Below are positions 46,568 to 50,370 of a DNA stretch of 64,000 nucleotides, piece by piece. Both the position numbers and the translations under genes were made by a program. Under the pieces are notes generated by a model that ran no database searches, had not been told where the DNA came from, and saw nothing but the letters and a program-made list of their open reading frames with translations. How positions within the stretch are numbered: position 1 is the first letter of the stretch; every line of letters begins with the position of its first letter. Origin of the DNA: Acidovorax sp. A1169 (lineage in GTDB: Bacteria; Pseudomonadota; Gammaproteobacteria; Burkholderiales; Burkholderiaceae_C); NCBI RefSeq assembly GCF_030704685.1, contig NZ_JAUZDX010000001.1, positions 620,001 through 684,000 of the forward strand, written 5' to 3'.

Positions 46568-48040
46568 ATGATGCCCAAGTTTGATTGGAGTATGCTGCGC
46601 GCCCTCGCCGTTTCGGGCGTGGTGGCGACGGTGGCCAGCGTGGCGGTGCTGCCCCAGGGCGTGGCCATGGCGCAGTCCGCCGTGGTCCGGGGCTTGCCGG
46701 ACTTCACTGACCTGGTGGACCAGGTTGGTCCGTCAGTGGTGAACATCCGAACGCGCGAGAAGGCGTCCGAGCGTTCGGGCGCCAACGGCATGGACGAGGA
46801 GATGGCAGAGTTCTTCCGCCGCTTCGGCGTGCCGATTCCCAACGTGCCGCGCCAGCAGCGCCCCCAGCGTCCCCAGCAGGATGAGGAGGCGCAGCCGCGC
46901 GGCGTGGGCTCGGGCTTCATCCTCACGGCCGACGGCTTCGTGATGACGAATGCGCATGTGGTCGAGGGGGCCGAGGAAGTCATCGTCACGCTCACCGACA
47001 AGCGCGAATACAAGGCGCGCATCGTGGGTGCCGACAAGCGCACCGACGTGGCCGTGGTCAAGATCGAGGCCACCGGGCTGCCAGCGGTGAAGGTGGGCGA
47101 TGTGAGCCGCCTCAAGGTGGGTGAGTGGGTTATGGCCATCGGCTCGCCTTTCGGCCTGGAGAACAGCGTGACTGCCGGCATCGTGAGCGCCAAGCAGCGC
47201 GACACGGGCGACTACCTGCCTTTCATCCAGACCGACGTGGCCATCAACCCCGGCAATTCCGGTGGCCCGCTGATCAACATGCGCGGCGAGGTGGTGGGGA
47301 TCAACAGCCAGATCTACTCGCGCTCGGGCGGCTTCATGGGTATCTCGTTCGCGATTCCGATGGACGAAGCGATCCGCGTCAGCGAGCAGTTGCGCTCGTC
47401 GGGCCGCGTGACGCGTGGCCGCATTGGCGTGCAGATTGGCGCGGTGAGCAAGGACGTGGCCGAATCGATCGGCCTGGGCAAGTCGCAGGGCGCGATGGTG
47501 ACAGGGGTGGAGTCGGGCTCGCCGGCCGACAAGGCGGGGGTCGAGGCAGGGGACATCATCACCCGCTTCGACGGCAAGCCCATCGAGAAGGTGGCCGACC
47601 TGCCGCGCCTGGTGGGCAACACCAAGCCCGGCACCAAGAGTGCCATCACGGTGTTCCGCCGCGGCAGCGCGCGCGACCTGTCCATCACCATCGCCGAAAT
47701 CGAACCCGACAAGCCGGTGGCCAAGGCGGTGGAGCGCGAGGAAAAGCCCAAGGCGTCGGCGGCAGCCCAGCAGCTCGGCCTGTCCGTGCTCGAACTCACC
47801 GATGCACAGAAGAAGGAGCTCAAGCTCAAGGGCGGCGTGGCCGTGGCATCGGCCACCGATGCCGCTGCGCGGGCGGGCCTGCGTGAAGGTGATGTGATCC
47901 TGTCCGTCGCCAACACGGAGATCGCGGGCCTCAAGGACTTCGAGGCGGTCGTGTCCAAGGCGGACAAGAGCAAGCCCTTGAGCCTGCTCTATCGCCGCGG
48001 CGAGTGGGCCCAGTATGCGGTGATCCGCCCTCTGCGCTGA
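46568..48040 (+). CDS. mucD: Periplasmic serine protease/chaperone MucD (DegP/HtrA)
   Basis: This encodes 490 residues. A signal peptide ends near VAMAQSA. The trypsin-like domain has His130 (TNAHVVEG), Asp160 (RTDVAVVKI) and Ser231 (NPGNSGGP). Two PDZ domains follow (about 275-370 and 390-485). Between residues 65 and 112 there is a Q/R/P-rich loop (LA-loop region). It degrades misfolded envelope proteins and completes the rpoE operon. Confidence 0.95.
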   Translation: MMPKFDWSMLRALAVSGVVATVASVAVLPQGVAMAQSAVVRGLPDFTDLVDQVGPSVVNIRTREKASERSGANGMDEEMAEFFRRFGVPIPNVPRQQRPQRPQQDEEAQPRGVGSGFILTADGFVMTNAHVVEGAEEVIVTLTDKREYKARIVGADKRTDVAVVKIEATGLPAVKVGDVSRLKVGEWVMAIGSPFGLENSVTAGIVSAKQRDTGDYLPFIQTDVAINPGNSGGPLINMRGEVVGINSQIYSRSGGFMGISFAIPMDEAIRVSEQLRSSGRVTRGRIGVQIGAVSKDVAESIGLGKSQGAMVTGVESGSPADKAGVEAGDIITRFDGKPIEKVADLPRLVGNTKPGTKSAITVFRRGSARDLSITIAEIEPDKPVAKAVEREEKPKASAAAQQLGLSVLELTDAQKKELKLKGGVAVASATDAAARAGLREGDVILSVANTEIAGLKDFEAVVSKADKSKPLSLLYRRGEWAQYAVIRPLR

Positions 48041-48191: not shown

Positions 48192-48291
48192 GCTGCGGGG
48201 CATCAACCAGTTTCGATAGAATGCAGGGGTCTGTTCAACCGTTATGTGCATATTGAACGACTCCTGCCCCACCATGCGGGATGCATCGTGT

Positions 48292-48370
48292 TCATGCACA
48301 GCTGATCCACAGCTCACCCACAAGTTGTTCATCATCGTGCGGGCTGGATCTGTGAATAAACTGTGTATAA
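48292..48370. repeat. Five DnaA-box-like 9-mers in two opposed 11-bp-phased arrays
   Basis: On the plus strand TCATGCACA (48292), TGATCCACA (48303) and TCACCCACA (48314) each end in CACA and are separated by exactly 2 bp (GC both times). On the minus strand TTATTCACA (48351-48359) and TTATACACA (48362-48370), again 2 bp apart, match the TTATNCACA consensus perfectly. The two sets face each other across 28 bp. The 2-bp, same-direction spacing is that of DnaA sites in the E. coli oriC oligomerisation region. Confidence 0.6.
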
Positions 48371-48440
48371 AATCCCTGTTGCAGTCAGGCAACGACCCTT
48401 TTCGTGCCAGTGCCGGGCTGCTCCCGACCCGCTTTTTGCC

Positions 48441-48517
48441 TACAATGAAGATCCAACTATCGCAGTTGCCAATGATTGTTGGTTCAGGGCGCGTCGCCAC
48501 TCGACGCGCCCTTTTTT
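48441..48517 (+). ncRNA. Candidate small RNA or lepA leader attenuator
   Basis: A -10-like TACAAT (48441-48446) precedes about 65 nt that can fold into CAACT/AGTTG (48454-48468), CCAA/TTGG (48469-48482) and the strong terminator stem (48487-48511) with T6. Nothing coding is convincing: a 34-codon frame from 48445 lacks a ribosome site. No clear -35 box is present. It could be a free sRNA or an attenuated leader of lepA. Confidence 0.4.
48487..48517 (+). terminator. Strong intrinsic terminator upstream of lepA
   Basis: GGGCGCGTCG and CGACGCGCCC form a perfect 10-bp stem with loop CCACT, then TTTTTT. It ends only 44 bp before the lepA ATG and about 450 bp after mucD, so it terminates a transcript that begins in the gap. 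Confidence 0.88.
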
Positions 48518-48561
48518 CTTGTGCGCGCCGTTTTAATTCAATTACTTGACGCTTCCCGTTG

Positions 48562-50370
48562 ATGAACCACATCAGAAATTTTTCCATCATTGCGCACATC
48601 GACCATGGCAAGTCGACGTTGGCCGACCGCTTGATCCAGCGATGCGGCGGCCTTGCGGACCGCGATATGGAGGCCCAGGTTCTGGACTCGATGGACATCG
48701 AGAAAGAGCGTGGGATAACCATCAAGGCGCAGACCGCTGCGCTGCAGTACAAGGCCCAGGATGGGCAGGTCTACAACCTCAATCTGATCGACACTCCGGG
48801 TCACGTTGACTTCTCGTACGAGGTGAGCCGTTCGCTGTCAGCATGCGAAGGCGCGCTGCTCGTCGTCGATGCCTCGCAGGGTGTCGAAGCACAGACCGTG
48901 GCCAATTGCTATACCGCGCTGGACCTCGGTGTGGAAGTGGTGCCGGTGCTCAACAAGATGGATCTGCCCAATGCCGATCCGGAGAATGCGAAGGCCGAGA
49001 TCGAGGACGTGATCGGCATCGATGCTGAGCATGCGATCCCTTGCTCGGCCAAGACCGGCATGGGAATCGACGAGATCCTCGAAGCCATCGTGGCCAAGGT
49101 GCCTGCGCCGCGCGGCAATGCAGACGGTCCGCTGCGCGCGATGATCGTCGACAGCTGGTTCGACAGCTATGTAGGCGTGGTGATGCTTGTGCGCGTGGTC
49201 GATGGCCGCCTGCTCAAGGGCGAGCGCATCAAGATGATGGCCAGCGAAGCGGTGTACAACGCGGACAATCTGGGTGTGTTCACCCCCGCCAACGAGCCGC
49301 GCAACTCGCTCGACGCGGGCCAGGTGGGCTACATCATCGCCGGCATCAAGGAGTTGCAGGCCGCCAAGGTGGGTGACACCATCACCCTCGAAAAGAAGCT
49401 GCCCAACAATGCCGGCCCAGCCACTGAAGCGCTGCCGGGTTTCAAGGAAATCCAGCCCCAGGTGTTTGCGGGCCTGTACCCGACGGAAGCCAGCGAGTAC
49501 GACTCGCTGCGCGATGCGCTGGAAAAGCTCAAGCTCAACGACGCTTCGCTGCACTACGAGCCAGAGGTTAGCCAGGCGCTGGGTTTCGGTTTTCGCTGCG
49601 GCTTCCTGGGCCTGTTGCACATGGAGATCGTGCAGGAGCGCCTGGAGCGAGAATTCGACCAGGACCTGATCACCACCGCGCCCAGCGTGGTCTACCAGGT
49701 GGTCCGCGCCGATGGCGAGACCGTCATGGTCGAGAACCCCTCCAAGATGCCCGACCAAGGCCGTATGGAAGAGGTGCGCGAGCCCATCGTCACCGTGCAC
49801 CTGTACATGCCCCAGGACTACGTGGGCCCGGTGATGACGCTGGCCAACCAGAAGCGCGGTGTGCAGATCAACATGGCCTACCATGGCCGCCAGGTCATGC
49901 TGACCTATGAGATGCCACTGGGCGAGATCGTCCTGGACTTCTTCGACAAGCTCAAGTCCGTTTCGCGCGGCTATGCGTCGATGGACTACGAGTTCAAGGA
50001 GTACCGCGCATCCGATGTGGTCAAGGTGGACATCCTGCTCAACGGCGAGAAGGTCGATGCGCTGTCCATCATCGTGCACCGTTCGCAGTCGCAGTACCGC
50101 GGCCGGGCCGTGGTGGGCAAGATGCGCGAGATCATCAGCCGCCAGATGTATGACGTGGCCATCCAGGCCGCCATCGGCGCCAACATCATCGCGCGCGAGA
50201 CCATCAAGGCCCTGCGCAAGAACGTGCTGGCCAAGTGCTATGGCGGGGATATTTCCCGCAAGCGCAAGCTTCTGGAAAAGCAGAAGGCGGGCAAGAAGCG
50301 GATGAAGCAGATCGGTTCGGTCGAGGTGCCCCAGGAGGCCTTCCTCGCCATTTTGCAGGTGGAAGATTGA
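48562..50370 (+). CDS. lepA: Elongation factor 4 (LepA) back-translocase GTPase
   Basis: The protein has 602 residues from ATG 48562 ([18 protein letters not shown]). GTPase motifs are [17 protein letters not shown] and NKMDLP. The EF-G-like domains and the unique C-terminal domain ([15 protein letters not shown]-like [19 protein letters not shown]) are complete. It binds ribosomes and helps translation under ionic stress. Its stop overlaps the lepB ATG by one base. Confidence 0.97.

Follow-up and report, generated by a model that had tools for sequence, protein, structure and literature searches.

A conserved DnaA-box-like array and a putative small RNA upstream of lepA, with predicted pairing to nucleoid-protein start codons

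Known DnaA sites and a histone-silencing RNA

DnaA is the protein that starts chromosome copying, and promoters that it regulates, for example those of dnaA and nrdAB, carry DnaA boxes near the promoter. Other sites act on DnaA itself: ATP-DnaA is hydrolysed in an IHF-dependent manner at datA, and core boxes I-III of DARS promote nucleotide exchange on ADP-DnaA. According to excerpts of PMC4285127, E. coli oriC holds two opposed arrays of low-affinity boxes. Excerpts of PMC10380432 describe datA, DARS1 and DARS2 of E. coli as DnaA-box clusters in non-coding DNA outside oriC that act on the nucleotide state of DnaA with IHF and Fis. In Chlamydia, the RNA IhtA acts in trans, setting a loop over the start codon of the histone-like hctA mRNA and acting on a second target, by way of a short G/C clamp of which AUGGC is part (excerpts of PMC4355289 and PMC3469542); its loop 1 occludes the hctA AUG (excerpt of PMC4355289).

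Here we describe a locus upstream of lepA in Acidovorax sp. A1169, studied within a 64,000-nucleotide stretch of DNA (the window, G000:C1:620001-684000) and across related genomes. Like datA and DARS1/2, it includes a non-coding cluster of DnaA-box-like motifs off oriC, but this cluster is coupled in position to an RNA gene. Its two opposed arrays resemble those of E. coli oriC, whereas dnaA lies elsewhere and a sampled relative has no skew switch at the array. Compared with the dnaA and nrdAB promoters, the regulated product here would be a small RNA; a search of the open-access literature found no paper on a DnaA-regulated promoter of a small RNA. The RNA differs from IhtA in belonging to another phylum, in its three target types, its 10-nt near-invariant loop and its lepA-linked locus, and in the DnaA-like array. 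In silico, it pairs over the AUG of histone-like mRNAs as IhtA does, and our best reading is that it would work like the chlamydial RNA, a likeness proposed for its mode of action.

A phased array conserved in the family

An initial annotation of this DNA had pointed to five DnaA-box-like 9-mers in opposed arrays. Reading the sequence again, we found all five in place, with the mismatches to TTATNCACA that had been reported and with steps of exactly 11 bp (9-mer plus 2 bp) in each array (Table 1). The same 2-bp gap had been ascribed to the boxes of E. coli oriC, in agreement with excerpts of PMC4285127. Several 9-mers near TTATNCACA thus stand in regular phase, with C or A at position 6 in relatives; at a possible weak fourth plus-strand box, GTTGTTCA is fairly well conserved in a 77-row alignment. 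Sites within one mismatch of TTATNCACA are not enriched across the window as a whole (7 observed, 11.3 expected), and five of the seven are packed into 126 bp (48245-48370; Poisson ~4e-11, with local AT content ignored). In the 6.8-Mb genome that holds the window, the tandem pattern TTATNCACANNTTATNCACA with up to three mismatches gave four matches, three of them the array locus and one a 3-mismatch match elsewhere, and its reversed control gave three. A search for copies on plasmids found none.

Table 1 Features of the locus (positions in the window)
Feature	Position	Strand	Remark
Upstream neighbour gene	46568..48040	+	presumably a mucD/degP-type serine protease, named from its translation
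DnaA-box-like 9-mer 1, TCATGCACA	48292..48300	+	1 mismatch to TTATNCACA; weakly kept in relatives
DnaA-box-like 9-mer 2, TGATCCACA	48303..48311	+	1 mismatch to TTATNCACA
DnaA-box-like 9-mer 3, TCACCCACA	48314..48322	+	2 mismatches to TTATNCACA
Possible weak fourth box, TTGTTCATC	48325..48333	+	3 mismatches; same 11-bp phase as plus array
DnaA-box-like 9-mer TTATTCACA, first of conserved tandem pair	48351..48359	-	0 mismatches to TTATNCACA
DnaA-box-like 9-mer TTATACACA, second of conserved tandem pair	48362..48370	-	0 mismatches to TTATNCACA
Conserved dyad TGTTGC-N6-GCAACG, in the interval between boxes and promoter	48377..48394	.	from alignment
-10-like hexamer TACAAT of the RNA gene	48441..48446	+	identified by eye
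Putative small RNA gene, about 65 nt	48453..48517	+	predicted 5' end 7 nt past TACAAT; conserved, with a predicted fold
Near-invariant loop GCAGUUGCCA, predicted seed	48462..48471	+	complementary to UGGCAACUGC
Intrinsic terminator of the RNA	48486..48517	+	11-bp stem, 5-nt loop, U run
Downstream neighbour gene	48562..50370	+	taken to be lepA, the name also used in the initial annotation

Conservation was assessed on 80 fetched lepA loci, of which four with short upstream DNA were left out and 76 were aligned with the window. Among the records fetched, those of Acidovorax come closest to the lepA of the window's genome. This comparison of mucD-lepA gaps in Comamonadaceae, which the initial annotation had proposed as a check, found the motifs conserved: the minus-strand pair scores at least 13/16 at one fixed place in 66 of 68 distinct lepA-fetched relatives that carry the RNA, and three control windows do so in 0/68. 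The pair also reaches at least 13/16 in 38/38 distinct RNA-fetched loci. One of the two exceptions among the 68 is a Delftia locus (L059) with the RNA and without the pair. The other (L064) was scored from a seed-like stretch of its own terminator, and separate inspection puts its array at the usual place. Across a set of 116 loci, shuffled sequences reached the pair score in none, and other box steps reached it in 7 (9 bp), 2 (10 bp), 0 (12 bp) and 28 (13 bp). As the array pattern had served to fetch 26 of the 116, a recount was made on the lepA-fetched and RNA-fetched loci, which excludes those 26; it keeps every contrast, and our confidence is therefore unchanged.

The paired boxes follow TTATNCACA closely, with T1, T2, A3, T4, A7, C8 and A9 kept in at least 105 of the 116 loci (26 of them array-fetched). 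Position 5 varies freely (C45 A32 T24 G15 in the second box), and position 6 holds C or A; the A, which occurs in 50/116 and 42/116 of paired boxes, departs from the E. coli consensus. Conservation is lower in the plus array, whose best box lies upstream of the pair by 47-48 bp in 72/116 loci. With at most one mismatch, the degenerate pair TTATNMACANNTTATNMACA occurs in 95 of 150 family genomes, as a single match in most of them, and the reversed form in four (five matches). Among 29 loci fetched from these matches, 26 are upstream of lepA, two (L105, L110) have no lepA and the flank of one (L124) runs out. An extra tandem pair in one genome (G321) is not at lepA.

The array had been described as lying away from dnaA, correctly so: in its own genome dnaA is on another contig, and in ten single-contig relatives the two are 0.15-0.47 genome lengths apart (0.15-0.28 in eight, ~0.41 in G312 and ~0.47 in G314). 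In one complete, single-contig relative (G093), GC skew is +0.070 and +0.080 on either side of the array. There the skew changes sign between a sample at 1-20 kb (-0.059, with dnaA at base 40) and one at 205-225 kb, and again near 2.05 Mb. We excluded oriC as an identity for the array on the location of dnaA and the lack of a skew switch in this relative. A coding frame through the region (101 aa, 48244-48549) was likewise rejected, as frames stay open over 240 nt in only 20, 5 and 0 of the 116 loci. In 30 family loci, the regions upstream of dnaA hold 49 near-boxes (at most one mismatch), none of which has A at position 6. Those regions (L005, L176-L204) carry a minus-strand TTATCCACA and a plus-strand [ACT]TATCCACA, 49-50 bp apart in 16/30.

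The array and a putative small RNA gene

From the array towards lepA, relatives present a nearly constant block: a -10-like TACAAT, a CCAAC-loop-GTTGG hairpin, a G+C-rich stem and a U run. Such a conserved short unit with an intrinsic terminator has the makeup expected of a base-pairing sRNA, and we hold with high confidence that the 65-nt element is an RNA gene, its transcription being predicted from these signals. Folding of the 65-nt stretch gave a z-score of -5.5, and four relatives gave -4.4 to -5.2. Fifty-six positions are identical across 38 RNA sequences that had been selected by an expression requiring CTACAAT and parts of the terminator; without that selection, TACAAT precedes the loop in 67/68 lepA-fetched and 38/38 RNA-fetched loci. 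A promoter scan returned no sigma-70 promoter for the RNA gene. The loop reads GCAGUUGCCA in 66/68 lepA-fetched and 38/38 RNA-fetched loci, with a C-to-U change in L016 and L111 and a changed last base in L120. Hairpin covariation is almost absent because the hairpin hardly varies. Divergent lineages are typified by a short form, CCAACAA-GCAGTTGCCATACG-TTTTGTTGG.

Of 200 family genomes, 180 carry the RNA according to a covariance model (E<=0.001), and only seven of them have two matches. Twelve of the 180 have E above 1e-6; since E values down to 1.3e-5 also arise from unrelated terminators in other families, the safe count is 168/200 genomes (E<1e-6). An order-level search of 399 genomes matched 14 of the window's family and, weakly, 13 from other families. 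We rejected these 13 loci as occurrences outside the family: they lack the lepA motif, and those inspected by eye mostly resemble chance terminators. Three Rfam matches in the region all fall under gathering scores, and no known RNA family was assigned. In listings from one open-access library, we found no earlier report of this RNA or of a DnaA array at lepA, and a text search of PMC3110155 finds neither lepA nor mucD.

The array keeps its distance to the RNA. From array start to loop, we measured 110-112 bp in 66/68 lepA-fetched loci and 109-112 bp in 38/38 RNA-fetched loci. The gap from RNA to lepA varies among relatives, and hence the fixed-distance neighbour of the array is the RNA gene, not lepA. 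Array and RNA have mostly been lost together: the loop is missing from eight of the 76 relatives (L015, L020, L052, L069, L075, L080, L084, L085), and so is the pair. Among 136 genomes searched for both, the tandem pair is present in 84/122 with the RNA versus 1/14 without it, that one not at lepA (Fisher about 1e-5, phylogeny ignored). Within the interval between boxes and promoter, the dyad core GTTG..CAAC is present in 106/116 loci at offsets of 26-29 and is a possible site for a second regulator.

Two observations concern lepA itself. In L102 (minus strand), the U run of the terminator abuts the lepA ATG, so that lepA there has to be either read through or translated without a leader of the usual kind. 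In L069, L075 and L080, the seed hairpin is gone and a G+C-rich terminator before lepA is retained.

Nucleoid-protein starts as predicted targets

The loop GCAGUUGCCA is complementary to AUGGCAACUGC, with which mRNAs of H1-like, SWIB and HU-type nucleoid proteins start. Its complement TGGCAACTGC occurs at 84 sites in three whole genomes (RNA genes included) versus 36 for the reversed pattern. Seven of the 84 are near a start preceded by a Shine-Dalgarno (SD) sequence with an open frame of at least 90 aa, and five of these seven are ATGGCAACTGCNAARAAR, belonging to nucleoid-type proteins that begin MATAKK. The window's own genome has one target per type (H1-like L289, SWIB L302, HU-type L314). 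The targets are lysine/alanine-rich and come as H1-like, H1-tail+SWIB and H1-tail+HU architectures, with the domains HC2 (L262), SWIB (L302, L267) and Bac_DNA_binding (L314, L281, L313). Two others, L289 and L277, have no Pfam match; the one NCBIfam match of L289, H1-like, is below threshold.

MATAKK starts, searched for with a degenerate pattern, occur in 193 of 200 family genomes. Among the first 150 matches listed, RNA-bearing genomes have exact ATGGCAACTGC at 131/142 MATAKK starts and in 66/66 genomes. The seed pairs with codons 2-3, and there the wobble bases are near-fixed; further on they vary, the third base of codon 4 being G, A or T and both AAA and AAG serving as codons 5-6 among the matches listed. 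Near gene starts, GCA serves 15/65 Ala and ACT 7/35 Thr codons. At 28 loci of RNA-bearing genomes not chosen by seed, typed by a simple script and leaving out six typed target genes that had been seed-fetched, ATGGCAACTGC is present in 26/26 nucleoid types and 0/2 others.

The 20 genomes lacking the RNA present a mixed picture. In these, ATGGCAACTGC is found in 12/28 rows, or in nine of the 18 genomes that have a MATAKK gene. By type (22 of the 28 rows fetched), it is kept in 4/13 SWIB, 4/5 H1-like and 1/4 other genes, so that decay of the seed match without the RNA is seen above all in SWIB genes. In some RNA-lacking genomes with a seed match, the strict filter may have missed an RNA that has diverged. 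Outside the family, 34 genomes searched gave ATGGCAACTGC in 3/9 rows.

Full-length duplex energies are only moderately special (3-45 of 300 shuffles equally low), but the terminator pairs with G+C-rich stretches, which makes this test unhelpful, and the hairpin alone was therefore used. For each of seven targets, no more than 1-3 of 178 background gene starts pair equally well with the hairpin, and the best-pairing background start is itself a MATAKK gene. A conserved seed with co-conserved target sites, save in the RNA-lacking exceptions, is what a base-pairing sRNA would present. In silico, the case for the RNA and its targets is strong, and we consider seed-target regulation of nucleoid-protein mRNAs likely.

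A proposed mechanism and its alternatives

We propose that the opposed 9-mer arrays form a DnaA-binding control region 83-161 bp upstream of the predicted RNA start. The RNA would consist of a 5' hairpin exposing the GCAGUUGCCA loop followed by the terminator, and would act in trans: pairing of the loop with AUGGCAACUGC over the AUG is predicted to block translation of nucleoid proteins. DnaA bound to the array would set the amount of RNA and so link the supply of proteins that pack the chromosome to the initiator of replication. Should DnaA act as an activator, the RNA would keep histone-like proteins low in growth and free them when active DnaA drops; that DnaA activates during growth is a guess. 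The DnaA lead of the initial annotation looks plausible from the motifs. We think DnaA is probably the protein that binds the array, and boxes 83-161 bp upstream, a distance fit for an activator or for looping, favour it as the promoter's regulator, a role we rate as slightly better than an even bet. Taken whole, a DnaA-controlled sRNA that blocks nucleoid-protein starts has, in our view, an even chance of being right. Parts of this mechanism face contrary findings in the position-6 departures, the negative promoter scan and the seed matches that stay intact in RNA-lacking genomes.

Position 6 bears on what binds the array. C or A there departs from the DnaA consensus, and the absence of A in all 49 near-boxes upstream of family dnaA genes would suit a different regulator, one recognising TTATNMACA repeats in tandem and driving the RNA gene. 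We find this doubtful, since the remaining box positions agree with the DnaA consensus; moreover, excerpts of PMC4285127 list TTATCCACA and TGATCCACA, the latter the Caulobacter G-box, as high-affinity DnaA boxes, and an excerpt of PMC4674748 lists TTATCAACA as a predicted DnaA box in Cyanothece. DnaA might also bind the array for a different end, with the array titrating, inactivating or reactivating it as a datA/DARS-like site and the RNA gene a mere neighbour. Opposed, 11-bp-spaced weak boxes recall the oriC/datA design, most matching genomes have one match, and in eight of the ten single-contig relatives the array and dnaA are 0.15-0.28 genome lengths apart. A free-standing titration site would not be expected to be rigidly spaced to the RNA or to be lost together with it, and we judge this explanation unlikely.

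The RNA and its apparent targets can also be read apart from each other. As a lepA leader, the hairpin and terminator would attenuate the lepA operon under DnaA control; the RNA precedes a motif-found lepA in all 45 RNA-fetched loci, and the abutting U run of L102 and the terminators that persist in L069, L075 and L080 despite the lost seed hairpin fit this account. Because it leaves the match between the loop and distant nucleoid-protein starts unexplained, we think it very unlikely. DnaA control of the lepA operon, one of the options in the initial annotation, leaves out of account that an RNA gene with its own terminator intervenes and that the array is spaced to the RNA; read-through into lepA may occur. 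On the target side, ATGGCAACTGC might be conserved through common descent of MATAKK tails or as a translation enhancer, with no RNA pairing. Its retention in half of the RNA-lacking genomes and in three of nine outgroup rows, and the ordinary frequency of GCA and ACT at codons 2-4, speak for this; its sharing by three domain types, the wobble bases near-fixed in codons 2-3 and free in codons 4-6, and its absence from both unrelated MATAKK genes of RNA-bearing genomes speak against it, making it decidedly unlikely.

In its broadest form, our preferred reading of a DnaA-controlled RNA would have a family-wide circuit in which DnaA, through a tiny RNA, turns off an H1-like/SWIB/HU-type regulon, so that nucleoid packing follows the DnaA cycle, and in which a chlamydia-like histone-silencing RNA has arisen independently in free-living bacteria. 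We offer this tentatively, as something short of an even chance. If true, it would make a testable family-wide link from DnaA to nucleoid-protein synthesis, and an RNA clamp on histone-like start codons would not be peculiar to Chlamydia. The RNA, which has no Rfam match at threshold, comes with a defined target set and, it seems, a record of the pairing in the codons of these targets. It could serve as a readout of DnaA activity in these bacteria, on whose DnaA cycle we know of little work.

Upstream of the arrays, a second -10-like TAGAAT (48217-48222) and a ATGCGGGATG element (48274-48283) are conserved in the alignment; the array may be flanked by two promoters. Elsewhere in the window's own genome, perfect TTATNCACA sites form further local clusters (G000:C12:427111-427518, L371; G000:C82:27483-28532, L368) that have no 11-bp phase. 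A 137-bp tandem repeat of 2.8 copies in the same genome (L370:873-1254) has a consensus that contains TTATCCACA.
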